NCBI GenBank assembly: GCA_958510825.1
Contig: OY294054.1
Coordinates: forward strand, 10,308,019 to 10,372,018
Source of the DNA: Brachypterus glaber
Taxonomy: Eukaryota; Arthropoda; Insecta; Coleoptera; Kateretidae
DNA length: 64,000 nucleotides
Direction of reading: 5' to 3'
Shown here one piece after another: positions 8,001-51,888 of this stretch. The notes beneath the pieces were generated by a model. The model saw only the letters and a program-made list of their open reading frames with translations. It was not told the origin of the DNA and did no database searches. Each line of letters starts with the position of its first letter. Position 1 is the stretch's first letter. A program made the translations under genes and the position numbers.

Positions 8001-9235
8001 CCAACCTATGACCCGGTTCGTTCCATAGTGAGGCATTTCGCAGTTAAGGTTGAGATCTTCTAAAAATTCTACAGCATCCTTGTAACCTCTATCAACGATA
8101 AAAATATCACCATCTTGTACCCACTGTCTAACGTTATTTTGCTCCTCATTAAGTTCATTAATCAGGATTGATGCATCATTATTTCGTACATCGGAAAAGT
8201 AGGGACCCTAAACGTCCACGATATAACCATCAGGAGCTACAATCAAATGAGCTTTAAACAATGTATATTTCTTACGAGGAGAAAATGATTGACGTTGAAT
8301 ACGAAAATGTGAGCTTTTTGGAGCTTTAATGTAGGTACAATCTGGATATAAAATTAATTTAGGCAAATCTGGTTCAGCGTTTTAAGTCTATTAGAAAACT
8401 CTGTAACATGTCTTCTGATAAAATCGTCTCTATTTTGTACTTCAGGGGCTCTGAAACCCAAATTATTCATAACGAAGTTCTCTGATATAGTTTGACGTGC
8501 AATATCAATGGCCATACTAACACTTTGATGACTGGAAAAATTCATAAAGCTTTTAAGAACCTATCAGAAATACCTTGACGAAGTTTCATAAACAAAGCAA
8601 TGACGAATTTTTTTATTAACATTTAGTACTTGATTATTAATAACAACTGGAGGACATGCATTAAACATAATATTAAACTGGTTTTTAGTTAACGATGTTA
8701 GAGTTTGAAAATCATCTTCCTCGAAGTTATTTTCATCGACATATTGGTCAGTCTTTGCTATTCGCTTAAGTTTCGTGAACCATAAGGCAAGTTCTTCTCC
8801 ACCCATAATAACGCGAGAAGGAATGGTAATATGGCCCTCCATAAATTCGGGTTTTATTAACCCTGAGGCCGTTAAATGTATATTACAGCAGCGGGTTCCA
8901 GAACTAACAAATATATTCTTTTTTGTATAAAAATCCACCCGCGCTTTTAAGCTAAGTCTATGATTAATTTCTTCACCGTGGCATATCACACAACCTCTTT
9001 GCGAAATAAGTACATTCATTGGAATGGATTGTGGATTATTTTCCATTTCTATAATATTATTTATTCGTCCACTGCAATTAATGCATACTTTCGTTTGGTC
9101 ATTAATATCCATTTCTATGATTCCGTGTACGTTTCGATGTTGCATTGTTGCAAGTTCAATTCGTCTTTCTTGCAAATTGGGTCGTCCAATAACAAATATA
9201 TTGGCGTAAACATTTCCGCAAACATAGCAGGGCAT
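5051..9235 (-). pseudogene. DDE transposase with SWIM zinc finger, broken by an insertion
   Basis: This was once a transposase that cut and pasted the 4397-13077 element. It reads on the minus strand from ATG at 9235. The N-terminal part has paired cysteines (CYVC, CINC, CVIC, CCNIH), a probable zinc-binding region. The DDE core follows: DCTYI, then GYIVDV-stop-GPYFSD, RNNDA, and GDIFIVDRGYKDA. It then jumps across the Transib-like element (CEMP|PLLNRN) to FTVEEAN. The C-terminus (5051-5270) has YCTCKVGAR...YAHV, a SWIM-type CxC...xH finger whose third cysteine is replaced by Tyr. Lesions are frameshifts near 8615, 8547 and 8385; a TAG at 8208-8210 inside the DDE core; the 2.3-kb insertion; loss of the expected 'RLVTK.RWVVE' region after EEAN near 5655; and further frame changes near 5490 and 5275. 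Similarity to invertebrate 'DDE Tnp4 domain' proteins is from memory. It is certainly non-functional. Confidence 0.8.
5708..8030. mobile_element. Transib-like non-autonomous element with 5-bp TSD
   Basis: The termini are inverted: the left end CACTATGGGACGAACCGGG matches the right end read in reverse, CACTATGGAACGAACCGGG. Similarity continues to GGACATC, about 36 bp. The element is flanked by AGGCA at 5703-5707 and AGGCA at 8031-8035. A CAC-heptamer-like terminus (CACTATG) plus a 5-bp target duplication is the hallmark of the Transib superfamily, relatives of RAG1. The interior has no long ORF, so it was mobilised in trans. It contains a dispersed repeat (6190-6300), long A/T runs near 6080-6180, and a GGACAGACGGGCGG microsatellite-like stretch near 7430. 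It interrupts the outer transposase between CEMP and PLLNRN. The duplicated AGGCA makes the junction exact. Confidence 0.8.
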
Positions 9236-9379
9236 GGTAATTTAAAGAACAAATAATAATTTTTAGGAAATATTAGACTAAATAAAGCTATTAATCAATC
9301 AAAACTTTATTATTATTATTATTATTACGAAAAAATATGAGTGAAGGTTTAAAACCTATAATACTCATTTGACCTAATT

Positions 9380-12150
9380 TTACAATACGAAATTATCATA
9401 TCTGATTTTAAAAATGTTGGAGTTACTGGCAGACACAACTTCTTCAGGAAGTGAGTTCCATTTGTGGAACACACGGACAGGCAGGGTGAATTCTTTGTAC
9501 GTGGTTCTAAAGGTAGGTCTCTTTAGATTCTTGGAGTGGCCACGAAGTCGATCATCCTCTGCTAGTTTGAACAGGTGGCTTAAAGAGGACTGAATATTAA
9601 TTGAGTTGAAGGTGCAGATCATATCGCCCCGCAAATAACGATCGTTTATTGATGGAAGCTTATAGAGTCTTAGGCGGTGTTCATACGAAGGGCGATTTTG
9701 TCCATATGAATATCGGGTGAATCTCCGCTGGACGTCTTCGAGCGCTGTCTTGTCACGCACTAACACAGGAAACCAAACTGAGTTCGCGAATTCTAAAATA
9801 GGGCGGACAAAAGTTTTAAACAGTCTTGACCGCACTCGTATGTCTTTATTTATAAACGTTTTATTTAAAAGAAATGAGGTAGAGTTCGCTTTTTTCACGA
9901 TCTTAGATATGTGTTCGGACCACGAGAGATTTGAGTTTATTGTGACACCAAGATCCTCTTGTGATTCAGTAACCATAAGTTGAGCATTGTTTATTGTATA
10001 GTTGTACCGGGGGTTATTCTTACCAATGTGAAGTACGCAACATTTGGATATATTTAAAGGAAGAAGCCACGATTTGCTCCACTCAAAGATGTTATTTAAG
10101 TCACGTTGGAGTTGATCATGATATATGTATGGATTGGCATAAAACTTCATGTCATCGGCGTGAGCTGGTTGACTCGACATGGCTTACAATGTCGGCTATA
10201 TATATATTAAGGAAAGAAGGGGTCCAAGCACGGATCCTTGGGGAACCCCGCTAAGTACGTCTTTGTAGTTGCTAAATACATCCCCAATAAGTACCCTGAA
10301 TTTTCTGGAAGACAAAAAGGCATTAACGAAGTCCAGAAGTTTACCACGGATCCCATTGTGTTTTATCTTGTAGTCTTTTTTTGGGTACTTTGTCGAAAGC
10401 CTTTTCGAAGTCCAGATATATGACATAAATGGGGTTGTTACTGTCCAATTCAGTTGTCCAGTCGCAGATACAATTTAGCAAATTGCTGACCACAGATTTC
10501 TTGGGAATAAAACCGTGCTGTTGGGTAGGAATAACGTTGTTTTCAATTAAAAACGGAAGCATTGCATCGACAACGATAGATTCCATAACTTTAGCTACTA
10601 ACGAGACCAGACTGATAGGGCGGTAGTTGATTGGGTTTAATTTATCGCCTTTTTTATATATGGGTTTGACCGTTGCTGATTTCCACTGATCAGGAAGTAC
10701 ACCAGAATCAAAAGATTGGCTCATTAATTTGGAGATAGGCTTGCATATTGAAGAGGCACATTCTTTTAATAATACTGCAGATATTTTGTCTTCGCCAGGA
10801 GAGGTTGAGGATTTTAGAGATTTTAATTTTTGCGTAATTTTCTCTTCGGAGAATACTACAATTTCCAGCGAGTTTTCAACGCGAGGGGTGTTAATATGTG
10901 GCATAGGACCATCAGTCTCTCTGGTGTACACATTGGAAAAGACGCAGGAAAATGCTTGAGAGATTTCTTCCTTATTGTTGCTTATAGTTTGGTCAGGCAG
11001 ACGAACTTGGGGAACAGATACCTTGCATTTTAGATTATTTCGGATGTACTTATAGAACTGTTTGGTGTTTCCATCGTTAGCTATGCGAGACTCATACACC
11101 CTTCGGGCATTTTTGATGTTTTCAGATAATTGATTCGAAAAGTTTCTGTGAGCTATGTAGTCTCTGGGGTTTCTTGAGCGGTAAAATTTTTGCCATAGCG
11201 ATTTTTTTCTTTTTACATCGCGCAAAATTTGGTCAGAAATCCAGGGCTTAGTTGGAACAGAGGATACATTTTTGTGGCTAGAGCACTTATTAACAAGTTG
11301 TTGTAATTGTTTCACAAAAGCTGACCAGTTTTCGTTGATGTTATTCGAAGAAAGCAAAGAGTCCCAGTCAGTCTCTGATATGCAGTTGGAGAGATCTTGA
11401 TAATTTACTTTAGTTATACGCTTAACTAATTTTCGTTGCGAGGCGTCACAGATTATCTGCATGTCAGAGAGTAGGCAAATGTGATCTGATTTGCCAATAG
11501 GGCTCTGGTATTTTAGGTTGGTCATGAGGTCAGCACTTGAGGTTAGAATTAGATCTAAAGTTGAAGGAAGTTCGCCAGTCCGAAAGCGAGTGTGTTTATG
11601 AACAATTTGTGAAATATGTGTCGTGTTGAGTAGATCCAGTAAAAGTTTAGAAGAATTTGATACTGTCTGGTCGGGGTGATTATCCACTGGCCATTTTATA
11701 TCAGGCATATTAAAATCCCCAAAGATAACAAGGTTTGGGTGATTTTCAACTAGAGTACCAATATAATTAAATAGTAATTGATCGTTAACGAAAGAATTTC
11801 GAGGTGGTCTGTATACACATCCAACTACAATTTCGACATAGCTATTAGATAGCTTCAAAAACAGGCCATCAACTGTTGCATTGGTAAAGGTGATCGGAGT
11901 AATGACAAACGGACGAAAAATTTCATTATGGAGGTAGATACAAACACCACCCCCGCGAGCATTTAGCCGATCGGATCGGTAGATAGTATATTCGGGGATA
12001 TCCACTGATGGATTAGGTAAGTGAGGTTTTAGCCATGTTTCGGAAATCAGTATACATGCAGGTTTCAAGTCATTAATAACTGGCGTAAGGTCATCAAATT
12101 TTGCAGGCAGAGAGTCTAGATTTGTGTAGAGGAACGGCCAGCTCGAGATG
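9380..12150 (-). pseudogene. LINE ORF2: AP endonuclease and reverse transcriptase
   Basis: The product nicked target DNA and reverse-transcribed the LINE RNA. The AP-endonuclease domain is first: FLYTNLDSL (conserved Asn), ISETWL (catalytic Glu), GDFNMPDIKW, and KSDH near 11480. Reverse transcriptase follows: YKKGDKLNPINYRPISLVS, TQQHGFIPKKS, YLDFEKAFDKV (first catalytic Asp), SGVPQGSVLGPLL, and AHADDMK, the degenerate FADD box. The C-terminal thumb-like region has EDLGVTINSNLSW, ILEFANSVWFP and DVQRRF, then a stop at 9380. Two frame breaks disable it: one at the A-run near 10375-10385 just after FDKVPKK, one near 10170-10190 just before the ADD box. The upstream limit is approximate; the frame is open past the first Met at 12068, and the conserved Asn lies upstream of that Met, so the true start is further 5'. 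Confidence 0.88.
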
Positions 12151-12840
12151 TTTCCTGGTTTTTTAATTGCTTCATTATAGTAGGTATGCCCTTGATATAT
12201 TTAATGGTAAGGTCTGATTCTCCGCTGTCAATTCTAGTTTGCAGTTCAGATCTCAGTTTTTCCAAGTACTCGATTTGCTTTGGCGTTTTATCGTCTTTAA
12301 TAACAACGTTTTTGTAGTTTGTAGAAGATAGGCGACCTTTCTTCTTAAGCACTTGTTTAGCAATGTCGATGTCGGGTAAAACAATCTTTAGCATCCTCGG
12401 TTTCGTGGGATCAGAGGGGGTATTCTTACCCAATCGAGTGATCTTAATAGGCATGATGTCTTGTTGATCCAAGACAGCCTTAAGAATGTTTTTCGCTGTA
12501 GCGGTGTCCTGAACAATACGATTTTCAAGGTTACCAGGTGGCTCGGGGACTTTAGCAACAAGTATGTTACGGGATCTATTAATACGTTCCGTTGCCTCCA
12601 CCACGATTTCCTCGTAATTGCAGGATGAAGAAGATCTATTAATAGATGAAATAGATTCGGTTAGCTTGTCTAACTTTCATTGAAGTCAACAGTAAGTTTG
12701 TCGATTAGCGATTTCATTTCCTTGAGTTGATATAAGTTGCTTAAACAAAGATTGCAAATAATACATGCATTTCTTGATTTGCTCCGAGTTAATCGAATGT
12801 CATCTGCGGAGAGTCCAACACAAGTTAGGTGAATACGCAT
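12116..12840 (-). pseudogene. LINE ORF1 (RNA-binding protein), frameshifted
   Basis: ORF1 proteins coat LINE RNA. The reading begins with ATG at 12838-12840, giving MRIHLTCVGLSADDIRLTRS, then a Cys pair region (CIICNLC). A coiled-coil-like stretch ends at a frame break near 12675. The second part, 12116-12604, has RLGKNTPSDPTKPRMLKIV and DKTPKQIEYLEKLRSELQTR. The latter matches the 'DLTP.Q...E..LR.EL' segment common in CR1/Jockey-like ORF1 C-termini (family knowledge from memory). It ends at 12116, overlapping the ORF2 reading frame. Confidence 0.65.
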
Positions 12841-27720: not shown

Positions 27721-28623
27721 AAGCCACCTTAGAAGCCCCTAGATATAAATTTTATAAACATTTTAAGAAAAAAAAAACGATATAAGGTATATTTTTCACC
27801 ACTGGGGGTGAGATGGAGGGGTGGTAGATCTTTTTTTACTTCACCAATATATTTTCCGCATCCAAATACATAAGTATGCAAAGTTTTATCTTCTTAGATA
27901 TTTTTACCTACGGGAAATTTCCTATTTGCTAGGCCTAATATTGGAGATACGAGTTAGTTACAGTTATTTATTTTAAGTAGTAAAGGAGATACGAGGTAAT
28001 TAGTTCCACATAACTTATAAACCAATTGGAATTTTAAATTTTTAAATTAGGACTTTGTTTAGGTCATTACTAATCATGTACAGAATTGATTAGTGCAAAA
28101 AAAAAAAACGAAAATCGAATTTTTGGAGATACGAGGTAGTTAAGGTAACACGATGATATGTAATATTTCTTCATCTTAGCCTTCCTCTTTTAACCATGTA
28201 TCAAATATGATACAAACCAAACTTGTTATAAAATGTCGTACATAGTTTTCTCAATCTTTATCGACGATTCTGCACGTGTGTTAAGTCCCTTTGGTGGAAA
28301 TCGGAAAATAACAGCAACGCTATAAGCCGTTATTTTATATGCACTGTCGATGTTTCATAAATATTATATTGAAAATCGTACTAAGAAAAAAAAATTACGT
28401 TAATATTAACGAATTGCAATGTTTATCCTTTGGTCAAAGGAGCAAAGTAGGAATAGAAAAAATCGGGTAGAGCTAAAATTAAATCTTTGTAAATATTTTA
28501 TTTATTTCGTTATTGCAAACGAAATGGAATTTTCCAAGTTCACTCTCTGGAAAGCGCGTGTCGGTATAAATGTACATTTGTACACAAAAAAATATATAAA
28601 GAACTTTCACTTTTGGGTATAGG

Positions 28624-28721
28624 CCGTGTTAATCGATTTTCACTATCCGACGTTTCGTCTCTTACTGCTAGAGACATCTTCAGGGATTAATCCTCCGGAA
28701 TTGAAAAATCCATTTACACGG
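28624..28721 (-). ncRNA. Hammerhead ribozyme-like motif, type I, minimal stem III
   Basis: Read on the minus strand. The core CTGAAGA (28677-28683) is followed by stem II GTCTCT/AGAGAC around AGCAGTA, with one extra U between core and stem. GAAAC then runs into GTC (28649-28656), giving the GUC cleavage triplet. Stem I pairs ATCC (28684-28687) with GGAT (28645-28648). After an asymmetric internal loop, an outer helix pairs 28702-28721 with 28624-28642 (CCGTGT..GGATTTTTCA with TGAAAATC..ACACGG). Stem III would be only the self-complementary ACGU, known to work in dimeric hammerheads. The fit to the CUGANGA...GAAA consensus is clear. Activity is uncertain. Confidence 0.6.
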
Positions 28722-29648
28722 TCTAAACCCGAAAGTGAAAGTTCTTTGCATCTTAGTGGCCGTAAAAGCTTAAAATCTAAAAAAATATATAGTTTTTTCA
28801 ACCAACCATTTAACAGTATTTTTGAATACATATTTGTTATTATAGCGAGAATAACCTACTAACTGAAAATATTTTATAGTATTTTTTTTCACTTGCCAAT
28901 ACAGTCGGCCACGGCTTCGGACGCGTCTATTTTGCCAAACTCAAAATTAAAATAAATTAATTTTATTGTTTTGCGCTTTTATTGCTTACAAAAAATTAAC
29001 AAACTAATAAGACTATTTCACAAACAATATATAGGCCAATCAAAACCTTGCATTTTTAGTTTCTTGACCAATCAGATCAAAATGAATCTGATAATTTTTG
29101 CACATATTCAATTATGACTTGGTAACTATGGAAACAAGAAACTGACATCTTAATAAATGTTATATTTTTGCAAAATGTTATATTTTTGCAAAATGTGTTT
29201 TTAATTTGTGAAGCTTACCTTGATTTATTTTTATTGATAAGCAGTATAAATTGTTTTTTTACGGGTGGAAACAACCGTTATTTTATTTCTTTTCAGTTGA
29301 AAACTAAACTTTTTAAAGAAAAATAGCAATGATTTTTATATAAATGCTAAAATATATGATAAAAACTATTTTATTGGAATAATCTCAAGCTTAAATATCC
29401 CTCAAGCAGTTTAGACTTGTCAACATTCGTGGTTTTTAAAAGCGCGGCAAATTTGAGATTAAAATTTTTAATTATAGTTGTAAAGTAATATTGTTGTTTA
29501 GTTCTTAAATTTTTAATTTAAATATGAAACAACATTAAACATGGTAAAATTATATACTTCCTTATTTTGTTTGTGAAATAGTCTTTCAAAATACCATTCG
29601 TGCATGTTGAACTGTTGAACTGTATATAAAAAATCATTTTGCTTAAGG
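28722..29648. other. AT-rich interval, nothing firmly recognised
   Basis: A GC-richer patch (CAGTCGGCCACGGCTTCGGACGC, in pieces) lies near 28903-28927. A short direct repeat GCAAAATGTTATATTTTTGC is near 29168-29193. No gene is supported. Confidence 0.35.
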
Positions 29649-31493: not shown

Positions 31494-32233
31494 CCGGTAT
31501 AACGCACTTTGGTAGAAACATTTTTGATTTTGTTCTAAATTTTTCTTTTTTCTGAAGTAAACGTATAATTCTCCTCTGCCGTAAATCTGCAAGAAGAATA
31601 ATAATTGAAATTTGATACTAAGAGCTCTCCTTACTACGACGTTTTATTGAAAATCCCACTCAGAAAAAATTACCCTAATAACAAATTATTTTTTGATCAT
31701 TTGCAAAGAAGGAATAGATAAAAATAAATAAGGCTAAAATTATTCCTTTGTGAAAAAATTGTTTGTACATTGATTGAAAATGAAATGGAAATTTCCAAGT
31801 TTACCTTTTCTGGGACGCAACAAAGAACTGTAATAATTTTACAATAAATATGTTTTTGCAATTAACAATAGTTTATTTTGTTTAAGGCTAGAAAAAAACG
31901 TATTTACTGACCTAGCCTGGTCCCATAATGTAGGCTCACAAATGGAGGGGACAGTTATGGGCTTCTCTAGGCCTTTGGCCGCCCTGGAAATATCTTTGCC
32001 CCCCTATAGTACTAAAAAAAATCAAACCGAAATTGGCCGCTTCTATAGTATTAATAATTATTAATTAATTAATTAATTATTAATAATTATTATTAATATA
32101 ATAATACATTATAATGTATTGATGCTTCTGACACGATATAAATAAATAGTATGGCTTAGATGCCGATATTTTGATGACTAAAAAAAGTTCCTTAACTCTA
32201 TAAAAACTATCAGAGATTTTAATGAATAAAAAA
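31494..32233. other. Interval without recognised genes
   Basis: 31900-32030 is a GC-richer stretch (CTAGGCCTTTGGCCGCCCTGG, split) with no recognised similarity. 32050-32100 is an AT-only palindromic run of TTAATTAA units. Confidence 0.35.
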
Positions 32234-33212
32234 ATAGGTCATAACCTTTTAATGGTTGCAACAAAAATACGTCGTAACCTTTTAAAAAAGTAGATCGTAA
32301 CCTTTTAATGGTTGTGGCAAAAATACGTCGTAACCTTTTAAAAAATAGGTCGTAACCTTTTAATGGTTGTGGCAAAAATACGTCGTAACCTTTTAAAAAA
32401 TAGGTCGTAACCTTTTAATGGTTGCAACAAAAATACGTCGTAACCTTTTAAAAAAGTAGATCGTAACATTTTAATGGTTGTGGCAAAAATACGTCGTAAC
32501 CTTTTAAAAAATAGGTCGTAACCTTTTAATGGTTGTGGCAAAAATACGTCGTAATCTTTTAAAAAATAGGTCGTAACCTTTTAATGGTTGCAACAAAAAT
32601 ACGTCGTAACCTTTTAAAAAAGTAGATCGTAACCTTTTAATGATTGTGGCAAAAATACGTCGTAACCTTTTAAAAAATAGGTCGTAACCTTTTAATGGTT
32701 GTGGCAAAAATACGTCGTAACCTTTTAAAAAATAGGTCGTAACCTTTTAATGGTTGCAACAAAAATACGTCGTAACCTTTTAAAAAAGTAGATCGTAACC
32801 TTTTAATGGTTGTGGCAAAAATACGTCGTAACCTTTTAAAAAATAGGTCGTAACCTTTTAATGGTTGTGGCAAAAATACGTCGTAACCTTTTAAAAAATA
32901 GGTCGTAACCTTTTAATGGTTGCAACAAAAATACGTCGTAACCTTTTAAAAAAGTAGATCGTAACCTTTTAATGGTTGTGGCAAAAATACGTCGTAACCT
33001 TTTAAAAAATAGGTCGTAACCTTTTAATGGTTGTGGCAAAAATACGTCGTAACCTTTTAAAAAATAGGTCGTAACCTTTTAATGGTTGCAACGAAAATAC
33101 GTCGTAACTTTTTAAAAAAGTAGATCGTAACCTTTTAATGGTTGTGGCAAAAATACGTCGTAACCTTTTAAAAAATAGGTCGTAACCTTTTAATGGTTGT
33201 GACAAAAATACG
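32234..33212. repeat. Minisatellite with 166-bp higher-order unit
   Basis: The array is built from CGTAACCTTTTAATGGTTG(TGGC or CAAC)AAAAATACGT followed by CGTAACCTTTTAAAAAATAG or the AAAAAAGTAG variant. Basic units are 55, 55 and 56 bp. Three make a 166-bp higher-order unit repeated about six times with very few differences. Each basic unit contains two CGTAACCTTTT boxes. Minus-strand 67-residue ORFs recur every 166 bp purely because of the repeat. Confidence 0.93.
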
Positions 33213-33224
33213 TACAACTACTTA

Positions 33225-48194: not shown

Positions 48195-48623
<429 letters not shown>

Positions 48624-49407: not shown

Positions 49408-49669
49408 CTGCCAGATACTGATCATATTGACCCTGGAGTTTTAAGCTACAGCTTGCCTGTTTTTTTTTCATTGGGAATTTTAATTTTCGAACGATTTCTG
49501 TTACCATTCTTCTTTTTATTGACACTAATTTTACATACCTAACTCTTGATTTATATCTGCCAGATGCTGATCATGTAAACGCTGGAAAGTTTCAAAGTAC
49601 AGCTTGCCTGTTTTTTTTTCATTGGGAATTTTAATTTTCAAACAATTTCTTATACCACCCTTCTTTTTA
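49408..49669 (+). repeat. ~150-bp tandem duplication (target of the ribozyme element)
   Basis: CTGCCAGAT(A/G)CTGATCAT..., CAGCTTGCCTGTTTTTTTTT, CATTGGGAATTTTAATTTTC and CTTCTTTTTA occur at about 49408-49518 and 49558-49669. Copy 1 continues uninterrupted into ACACTAATTTTACATACC. Copy 2 is cut at CTTCTTTTTA and that continuation reappears at 49934. Confidence 0.8.
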
Positions 49670-49923
49670 AGGACAGAAATTTTTAATTTTAAACAAAATT
49701 TTAAAAATATTAATTTCTTTAATCAATCTATTTTCTAATCGTCTAGCAATAGATGGCGCACAAGTCTACATCAATCTAATAGCTATATTCCTTTTGCGAG
49801 TAAAGTCTAATCAGTGTGCAGAGTTGACTCTTGGTACTGAAGAGGGCCAGCAGCCCGAAACTGTCAGTCTACCAATATCACTCTGTACGATGATTAGAAA
49901 ACAGATTGATTAAATAATAAAAT
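49670..49923 (+). mobile_element. Small retroelement carrying a hammerhead ribozyme
   Basis: The insertion is defined by an 11-bp duplication CCTTCTTTTTA at 49659-49669 and 49924-49934. The uninterrupted paralogous copy at 49509-49547 independently shows the empty site. The ~254-bp insert contains AGATGGCGC, the ribozyme at 49806-49898, and ends GATTGATTAAATAATAAAAT. An outer inverted pair, AATCAATCTATTTTCTAATC (49720s) and GATTAGAAAACAGATTGATT (49890s), encloses the ribozyme. Variable-length TSD and an embedded type I hammerhead point to a truncated Penelope-like element or a hammerhead-bearing SINE-like retroelement (inference). Confidence 0.65.
49806..49898 (+). ncRNA. Type I hammerhead ribozyme
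   Basis: A small self-cleaving RNA. All conserved parts are present in order. Stem I TTGGTA (49831-49836) pairs with TACCAA (49870-49875). The core is CTGAAGA (49837-49843), fitting CUGANGA. Stem II is GGGC/GCCC around CAGCA (49844-49856), then GAAA (49857-49860). Stem III is ACT/AGT around GTC (49860-49868). The cleavage residue C is 49869, giving a GUC^U site. Stem I is extended by CAGAGT/ACTCTG (49819-49824, 49880-49885) and TCTAATCA/TGATTAGA (49806-49813, 49891-49898), separated by internal loops as expected for loop-loop contacts. Helices over three segments plus an intact core are very unlikely by chance. Confidence 0.85.
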
Positions 49924-49973
49924 CCTTCTTTTTATTTACACTAATTTTACATACCCAACTCTATTTGAGACGC

Positions 49974-51888
49974 ATAGTGCAAGAGTGGCCCATATGTTTT
50001 TTTGAGATTTGAGTTTTTTTTTTATAAATGTAATAAGGACATTCACTTTCATTACATACCACCCTCATAACACAGGGTTTTAATTTTGGCACGATACAAG
50101 CATTTAAAGCACTATTGCATTATTAAAATTATCGCTTTTATTAGTGCAAGAGTGGCCCACAGGTATAGGCTACCAGTCAAACATATCAGTCATAAAAACG
50201 TCCAAACGTAGCGAAACGTTTTAAACAAATTCGCCCTCCCCTCTAGAGCGTTACGTGATACTTGAATGTTCCCTAATGGGTTGATAGTGATGTTCGGTGG
50301 GTTATATTATTGGGGATGTTGAAAAAGCCAACTACATCATTAAAAATGTCAATTTTATTCTTAAAAAAGCTAACAAGGCAAGTTTTACCAAGGATTTATA
50401 AAGATATTTTTAGAAAGATTCATAAAAAAGCCAAAATTTGTTTTATCGAGAAAGTTATTTGTTCGTCCCAAAACAAATTATTTTCTGCACAAATGCAGAA
50501 GCGTTATGTTACCAATTTTGTACATTTTGCTTTAGGAACTGAAATCCATTTAGGTACTTAAACAATGTTTACGCATTAGTTATTCTTCATTTTTAAAGGT
50601 AATTACTCCAAGAATAGTAAAAAAACGTTTATTTAACTATTCCAGAGCATAATTATTGGTATTTTGACTATTCTGTTATTAAATAACGAACATTTCTTTC
50701 ACATGTAAAAATAATTAAAATTTCAAAGTAAAATGTGAGGTTAGATCTACTAAAAAAAAAACGTGTTATTGAAGGTCAGATTTTATTCTTAAAAAAGCTA
50801 ACAAGGCAAGTTTTACCAAGGATTTATAAAGATATTTTTAGAAAGATTCATAAAAAAGCCAAAATTTGTTTTATCGAGAAAGTTATTTGTTCGTCCCAAA
50901 ACAAATTATTTTCTGCACAAATGCAGAAGCGTTATGTTACCAATTTTGTACATTTTGCTTTAGGAACTGAAATCCATTTAGGTACTTAAACAATGTTTAC
51001 GCATTAGTTATTCTTCATTTTTAAAGGTAATTACTCCAAGAATAGTAAAAAAACGTTTATTTAACTATTCCAGAGCATAATTATTGGTATTTTGACTATT
51101 CTGTTATTAAATAACGAACATTTCTTTCACATGTAAAAATAATTAAAATTTCAAAGTAAAATGTGAGGTTAGATCTACTAAAAAAAAAAACGTGTTATTG
51201 AAGGTCAGATTTTATTCTTAAAAAAGCTAACAAGGCAAGTTTTACCAAGGATTTATAAAGATATTTTTAGAAAGATTCATAAAAAAGCCAAAATTTGTTT
51301 TATCGAGAAAGTTATTTGTTCGTCCCAAAACAAATTATTTTCTGCACAAATGCAGAAGCGTTATGTTACCAATTTTGTACATTTTGCTTTAGGAACTGAA
51401 ATCCATTTAGGTACTTAAACAATGTTTACGCATTAGTTATTCTTCATTTTTAAAGGTAATTACTCCAAGAATAGTAAAAAAACGTTTATTTAACTATTCC
51501 AGAGCATAATTATTGGTATTTTGACTATTCTGTTATTAAATAACGAACATTTCTTTCACATGTAAAAATAATTAAAATTTCAAAGTAAAATGTGAGGTTA
51601 GATCTACTAAAAAAAAAACGTGTTATTGAAGGTCAGATCTCGTTCGTAATGCAATAGTGGCCCAAAATGAACACAATGTATAGTGCAATAGTGACCCACC
51701 AAGAAAGTAAAGAAAGTAAAATAATTTTTTTTGTCGTACATTACCTTAATGTTGGTTGAGTAAAAACCCTAACAGAAAATTTTTAAATAAAATAATGCGT
51801 GCTAGATCAAAGATTATAAAATCGGAGAAATTTAAATAGCCATTATCTCGATATTTCCATAAAGTGAGAGGGGCCACTCTTGCACTAT
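49974..51888. mobile_element. TIR element with GTGCAAGAGTGGCCC termini
   Basis: The left ATAGTGCAAGAGTGGCCC and, reversed from the right, the same 18 bases bound 1.9 kb. The terminal motif recurs inside: TAGTGCAAGAGTGGCCCAC at 50144, TGCAATAGTGGCCCA near 51649 and TAGTGCAATAGTGACCCACC near 51680. The interior holds three near-identical 428-bp units (50353-51638). No known transposase was recognised. The TSD is not clear. Confidence 0.7.
50353..51638 (+). repeat. Triplicated 428-bp unit with a conserved 69-residue frame
   Basis: Units start at 50353, 50781 and 51210 with TTTTATTCTTAAAAAAGCTA and end ...TGTTATTGAAGGTCAGAT. They differ by essentially one base in an A-run. Each contains an open frame ILFLKKLTRQVLPRIYKDIF ... 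SSQNKLFSAQMQKRYVTNF ... ending GTEIHLGT-stop. It is Lys/Arg-rich with no recognised domain. Only the first two copies gain an upstream Met. It could be a fragment of the element's own protein or fortuitous. An exact triplication could also be an assembly effect. Confidence 0.85.

Follow-up and report, generated by a model that had tools for sequence, protein, structure and literature searches.

The window analysed here is a stretch of 64,000 nucleotides from the beetle Brachypterus glaber, in which an mGluR exon lies 1.19 kb upstream of a type I hammerhead ribozyme (HHR) motif on the same strand. The motif sits in a 255-bp insert flanked by a short target duplication. Positions are counted from the first base of the window, and the features of the locus are as follows.

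48435 to 48617, plus strand: exon of the mGluR ligand-binding domain (PDB match to mGluR7, E 9.7e-25), with the donor GTAAGT from 48618
49408 to 49556, plus strand: intact neighbouring copy of a ~150-bp repeat, the repeat type that the retrozyme entered, used as a proxy for the empty site
49659 to 49668: left copy of the target duplication, CCTTCTTTTT, the 11th nucleotide (A) being common with the element
49669 to 49923: retrozyme insert of 255 bp, two cDNA pieces head to head, delimited by homology to a 354-bp unit on both strands and by the bounds of the target duplication
49669 to 49743, minus strand: inverted piece, unit positions 239 down to 162, with its outer end at site B (…TTTCTGTCCTT)
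49742 to 49923, plus strand: forward piece, unit positions 1-194, with its outer end at site A (…AATAATAAA)
49806 to 49898, plus strand: type I HHR motif with extended stem I, from sequence reading and a strict descriptor
49837 to 49843, plus strand: HHR core CTGAAGA (C3 to A9), from sequence reading
49844 to 49856, plus strand: HHR stem II and loop, GGGC-CAGCA-GCCC (stem GGGC/GCCC at 49844-47/49853-56, loop of 5 nt)
49857 to 49869, plus strand: HHR GAAA, short stem III (ACU-GUC-AGU) and C17, from sequence reading
49924 to 49933: right copy of the target duplication, from flank comparison

The exon and its donor place the HHR-bearing retroelement in an mGluR intron on the gene's strand, as the preliminary description of this DNA had it; no further mGluR exon was found in the window with an mGluR query sequence. 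When the insert is removed, its flanks match the repeat copy at 49408-49556 at 123 of 141 positions, with 2 gap positions, none of them at the insertion site. The insert is 5'-truncated on both sides and covers about half of the 354-bp unit, with site B on the left and site A on the right, and the forward piece lacks about 14 nt near unit positions 70-83. Its inverted arms (49715-49743 and 49889-49917; 29 bp, 90% complementary) are two partial copies of one element and not transposon termini, because both pieces align to one unit and are flanked by the target duplication. A reading of the direct repeats at 49506 and 49922 as a 416-bp tandem was dropped; these are the halves of the interrupted local repeat.

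Several other features were observed in the window. A LINE-like open frame of 619 aa (10341-12200, minus strand) shows 44% identity to its best relatives among the matches listed, which have PF00078, PF14529 and PF03372 and of which the named ones are largely from beetles. About three near-identical tandem copies of a ~428-bp unit (50350-51640) adjoin the retrozyme, and a short repeat, TAGTGCAAGAGTGGCCCA, occurs in direct and inverted copies around this array (49975, 50142, ~51650 and ~51862). A 166-bp repeat array (32181-33217, minus strand) contains a frame that reads KGYDLFFKRLRRIFATTIKRLR repeatedly, and a 225-aa open frame at 8564-9241 (minus strand) is rich in Cys/His pairs.

The motif at 49806-49898 has the CUGANGA…GAAA…UH arrangement of a type I HHR, with three helices and an open stem I. 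Stem I consists of three blocks, in order TTGGTA/TACCAA, CAGAGT/ACTCTG and TCTAATCA/TGATTAGA, and from their sequence position the internal loops between them are placed suitably for a putative loop-loop tertiary contact between stems I and II. The GAAA occupies 49857-60, and stem III (ACU/AGU, 49860-62/49866-68) has 3 bp and a loop of 3 nt. As C17 is at 49869, cleavage is predicted at 49869|49870. The strict descriptor has this stretch as its sole match on both strands of the window. Among 20,224 Markov-1 random sequences as long as the window, each scanned on one strand, 25 gave a match, corresponding to 0.0025 expected per window. A looser core pattern, with 0.25 expected, gives an additional match at 28653-28683 on the minus strand; the exact HHR pattern was absent from the viral contigs searched. 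These counts confirm the motif as real and far rarer than chance at the level of sequence, and the core, stems I-III and cleavage site are all where the preliminary description had read them. Its word "complete" holds for the motif but not for the element, which is truncated.

Covariance models and folding give a less favourable picture. No Rfam family reached its gathering cut-off across the window, and no hammerhead family appeared at E<=10 in the 501 bases at 49600-50100. On the 106 bases at 49800-49905, the best hit was the RAGATH-1 hammerhead (RF03152), at 19.1 bits against a cut-off of 56.3 (E 0.24), so the model search proposed in the preliminary description ended below threshold. The RAGATH-1 alignment puts the same core, stem II and cleavage side on the window HHR, which nevertheless lies so far below the cut-off that it is a non-member. 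The HHR region folds much more stably than its shuffles (z -5.57). For the 90-nt HHR, the minimum free energy (MFE) structure from RNAfold has -33.0 kcal/mol vs -17.5 kcal/mol for the hammerhead fold; it pairs the core ACUG with the stem III CAGU and omits stem III, the probability of which is 0. A fold without the three-way junction had been named beforehand as counting against the ribozyme, and taken literally this is what was obtained, by a yardstick that disregards tertiary contacts and Mg2+. The three blocks proposed for stem I are present, but in the fold of the whole element the outermost, TGATTAGA, prefers the left arm (49735-49897, P 1.0) and pairs with 49806-49813 at a P of only 0.003.

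The insert belongs to a multicopy family. A search of the 648-Mb assembly (842 contigs) with the 197 bases at 49718-49914 gave 255 first-look candidates, with 86-100% identity among the 40 scored. The unit half without the HHR gave 530 candidates as a query, and 35 of the 41 rows listed had the same score at 96% identity; this shared score among the rows listed suggests recent spread. Locus L017 is a tandem array of 3.9 units of 354 bp, from which the reference unit (L017:966-1319, 354 bp) was taken; other multi-unit loci were found, and the window copy itself is not tandem. The unit has a GC content of 35.6% and a longest stop-to-stop frame of 65 aa (read on the tripled unit), and none of 100 shuffles folds as well as the unit itself (z -4.13). 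With no long frame, it encodes no reverse transcriptase (RT) or GIY-YIG endonuclease. A search of the unit for Pol III boxes found one weak A-box-like match and no B box, so a SINE-type promoter is not claimed. The family combines the properties by which retrozymes are recognized, namely a type I HHR in tandem 354-bp units, low GC, and no LTR or coding capacity, and the window insert is a broken copy of a multicopy metazoan non-LTR retrozyme.

Across 39 loci, 64 HHR copies with 39 distinct sequences were collected. All 12 core positions are intact in 36 of the 39 distinct sequences, and there are 0.25 variants per core column vs 0.885 elsewhere; as the loci were chosen by likeness to the window copy, this overstates conservation. 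Covariation says little here, with 1 double change in 23 pairs, the family being too young for such a signal.

The ends of the inserts were examined in two samples. Sample 1 comprises 38 fetched loci and the window, from which 6 of 39 loci cut by the region end were left out. Sample 2 was picked with the unit half lacking the HHR, and covers 17 of the 29 loci listed (5 extracted automatically and 12 chosen within a limit on total sequence length, multi-hit arrays and the final loci of the list being left out), with 1 of the 17 cut and dropped. Outer ends fall at two sites, A at about unit 191-194 and B at unit 239, which bound a tail of ~48 nt; the site windows (A, unit 188-215; B, unit 234-255) were set after the ends were seen. 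Of the 33 loci of sample 1 at which both ends are visible, 9 are single-orientation; the other 24 are head to head, so arranged that a 3' end of the element faces outward on either side. Among the 24, 21 have one A and one B end (A+B), none is A+A or B+B, and 3 have one other end. Target duplications of at least 7 nt flank 23 of the 24 (median 12), vs 8.2% of 1056 flank-swapped control pairs, and each head-to-head pair is therefore taken as a single insertion event.

Sample 2 behaves alike. Of its 16 uncut loci, 2 are single-orientation and 14 are head-to-head pairs whose two ends can be seen; 9 of these are A+B, none is homotypic, and 5 have an atypical end. A duplication of 7 nt or more accompanies 8 of the 9 A+B loci and none of the 5 atypical ones. 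Both samples together give 38 head-to-head loci (30 A+B, 0 A+A, 0 B+B and 8 atypical), and if 30 A and 30 B ends were paired at random, an outcome of mixed pairs alone would have P = 9e-9. By eye, most of the atypical ends look truncated or rearranged. Two loci, L030 and L038, have clean inserts flanked by duplications, with cDNA starts at unit 168 and 174, neither A nor B. The odd end of L018, counted as atypical, carries the B terminal word after a deletion. Junctions between the two pieces often show 1-8 nt of microhomology; overlaps entered by hand for 37 loci have a median of 2 nt and reach at least 2 nt in 25. The retrozyme therefore shows the combination by which PLE-type insertion was defined here, that of Penelope-like elements (PLEs): head-to-head pieces, a tail at one end and a short duplication.

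A PLE fragment with a minimal HHR is present in the same window.

28586 to 28598: target duplication of the second insert, AAAAAAATATATA, 13 bp, with its right copy at 28779-28791
28599 to 28778: second HHR-bearing insert, a solo head-to-head Penelope-like fragment, without tail at its left end and with tail at its right (ends judged by eye)
28653 to 28683, minus strand: PLE-type minimal HHR core CTGAAGATG…GAGACGAAA, then CGTC, without a stem III loop

The Rfam models gave no hammerhead match for this core. The insert is multicopy (810 candidates, 40 scored), and one of the 18 fetched PLE loci, L083, carries an 848-aa open frame with RVT_1. L083 is 47% identical to P0134 over 627 positions, and its C-terminus (GVYKIPCSCGTVYIGET) aligns to that of P0134, in which Pfam GIY-YIG passes its cut-off at 26.3 bits; Pfam did not call GIY-YIG in L083 itself, and L083 does not figure in a genome listing of 31 GIY-YIG places. 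A 638-aa leucine-rich-repeat frame (L074:4287-6200, plus strand) adjoins another PLE insert.

The PLE follows the same end rule. From a sample of 31 loci, 6 without two detected ends were dropped; the remaining 25 carry 26 head-to-head inserts, every one of them A+B, 18 with one order of ends and 8 with the opposite order. The site windows (A 160-178, B 188-206) were again set after the ends were seen; as the PLE query lies near A, only the end opposite A tests the rule freely. Target duplications of at least 7 nt flank 22 of the 26, vs 28.7% of 648 control pairs in this AT-rich set. At nominal end positions, the HHR cut of the PLE is 56 nt from A and 88 nt from B, that of the retrozyme 49 nt from A and 97 nt from B, and the tail is ~32 nt vs ~48 nt. 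No sequence homology of the retrozyme unit to L083 was found (best match 14 nt, E 0.044). The retrozyme behaves like a PLE insert but is not one. That both elements of one genome follow the same end rule suggests Penelope enzymes as movers of the retrozyme. The preliminary description, whose interpretation is partly supported, had overlooked this second HHR insert at 28.6 kb and the Penelope link, as well as the target duplication and the inverted left arm of the first insert.

Variants within loci bear on the template of the two cDNAs. At 16 family polymorphisms, the cells with a difference number 27 of 224 between the inverted halves of one locus, 42 of 361 between tandem units and 10,616 of 34,477 between units of different loci; in 2000 permutations of the inverted pairs, no value as low as 27/224 arose. 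In L037, a 1-nt HHR deletion is common to all three units, in both orientations. Of 57 cDNA pieces, 23 are longer than one unit and 48 cross the HHR cut (a query-biased figure); 5' ends are spread over the unit, with 2 lying within 3 nt of the cut. These data fit a template that is a circle or multimer, and one RNA source for both halves. Unlike units in some arrays (the last unit of L017 at 11/248, L046 at 16/342 and L010 at 12/129) argue against one circle as the sole template, and gene conversion between arms is a possible mimic of a shared template.

We consider it probable (roughly 0.8) that the family is a non-autonomous, non-coding retrozyme, with a 354-nt unit and a type I HHR, which is copied in by the resident PLE machinery. 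In such a scheme, tandem transcripts would be cut by the HHR and ligated into circles, a step taken from the literature. At an AT-rich target, the PLE reverse transcriptase/endonuclease would make staggered cuts in the two strands, separated by a few bases. From each of the strand ends so formed, synthesis would be primed inside the RNA, beginning at A (~49 nt beyond the HHR cut) for one strand and at B (~97 nt beyond the cut) for the other. The cDNAs, which would vary in length and in some cases exceed one unit, would then be joined head to head, often via microhomology, leaving a target duplication of 7-14 bp. The window copy would be one such insert, which landed in a repeat inside the mGluR intron. 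Observed directly are the insert and its duplication, the tandem unit, the head-to-head form, the A+B rule, and the same rule with similar spacing in the PLE; the circular template, the use of one RNA for both ends, the PLE protein as the enzyme and the ribozyme activity are what we infer.

A further, tentative reading, to which we would give less than even odds, is that the HHR with A and B forms a portable reverse transcription cassette of PLEs and retrozymes, by which a single (circular) RNA is copied simultaneously from both cut strands, at A and at B. If true, it would explain why the two ends are never identical, why private variants such as that of L037 are common to both halves, and why the spacing from an upstream HHR to the starts is similar in PLEs and retrozymes.

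The HHR might instead be a dead relic with no catalytic role, DNA-level spread of the repeat alone being what matters. The Anolis PLE inserted RNA in vitro without needing HHR cleavage (PMC11167929), and the score below the Rfam cut-off, the MFE structure without stem III and the lack of covariation agree with such a relic, whereas comparable HHRs from other animals self-cleave (PMC7229834). A core that is intact in 36 of the 39 distinct copies and varies less than other positions, albeit in a biased sample, and the like HHR-A-B layout of retrozyme and PLE make a relic rather improbable.

Movement of the retrozyme by a LINE, with the inverted arm arising by L1-like twin priming, seems distinctly unlikely. 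Twin priming puts the 3' start of an element at one end only, whereas the retrozyme has a 3' start at either outer end, at two fixed sites. There are LINE reverse transcriptases (10341-12200, minus strand), and 5' truncation with 7-15 bp duplications would also suit target-primed reverse transcription; however, the retrozyme ends inspected have no poly(A) or microsatellite tail, and the same end rule holds in a PLE of this genome.

Very unlikely is a DNA transposon (MITE) with the 29-bp arms as its ends and the HHR arising by chance in its terminal inverted repeats. The 90% complementarity of the arms and the short flanking duplications would suit it, but the arms are internal unit sequence in an inverted copy, tandem 354-bp arrays exist, and the outer ends are two different sequences and not one repeat. 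Arm length, junction and unit number also vary from one related copy to the next, and the reading was rejected for the absence of fixed terminal repeats across copies. A domesticated role for the HHR in regulating the mGluR intron, as its intronic position on the gene's strand might suggest, is scarcely credible and was rejected, since it is one of many near-identical dispersed copies, 4 of them with a 90-nt HHR identical to that of the window, as expected of a recent chance insertion.

For PLE-borne copying of the retrozyme, the wider interest is that insert-end structure offers a direct, sequence-only test of the mover, repeatable in any animal genome. The A+B rule, with 26 of 26 PLE inserts, constrains how two RT starts are shared between two target strands, and hints at what the HHR may be for in PLEs. 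The consequence at the window locus is modest, this being a truncated single-HHR copy in an mGluR intron. A release of small RNAs had been suggested for this copy, but with a single HHR neither a unit-length monomer nor a defined small RNA can be released; the HHR might at most cut the mGluR intron once.

LINEs or PLEs were named in 2020 as movers of retrozymes, with PLEs as a strong or likely candidate on the basis of co-occurrence and shared HHRs (PMC7229834, PMC7761336). The retrozyme ends are, on our reading of one genome, specific and direct insertion evidence for PLE-moved retrozymes, and no prior report of head-to-head, tail-bearing retrozyme inserts was found in the searches made of open-licence papers. 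In the Anolis PLE (PAc), the protein cuts and extends both target strands, and reverse transcription starts at two adjacent internal sites that bound a genomic 'tail' of 30-40 bp; counted within the frame, its HHR cut is at 26 nt and its distal RT start at 111-118 nt, about 85-92 nt apart (PMC11167929). In vitro, no difference in RT start site was seen between the strands (PMC11167929), a finding compatible with the A+B rule but not implying it. In the rotifer Adineta, PLEs carry inverted pLTRs arranged head to head, one of which bears a tail, and show duplications of 8-10 bp (PMC3846280).

Set beside these tailed PLEs (PMC11167929, PMC3846280), the retrozyme is alike in its head-to-head repeats, one-ended tail and short duplications and, for Anolis PAc (PMC11167929), in having two RT starts downstream of the HHR. 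Unlike them, it lacks an open frame, its HHR is of a different, canonical kind, its tail is longer, and no homology to L083 was detected. Plant LTR retrozymes are likewise HHR-bearing non-autonomous retroelements, but theirs is a type III HHR, in elements with LTRs and PBS/PPT that are thought to be moved by Gypsy. There is a close likeness to the metazoan non-LTR retrozymes of Cervera and de la Pena 2020 (PMC7229834). These, too, have a type I HHR whose stem III is short, units in tandem (150-450 bp, against 354 bp here), a low GC content, no coding capacity seen, and PLEs with minimal HHRs in the same genome. Abundant linear and circular RNA of unit length marks that system, and a circle is predicted here; paired head-to-head insertion, starts at A and B, and a one-ended tail are not described in the portions of that account consulted, and distinguish the family reported here.
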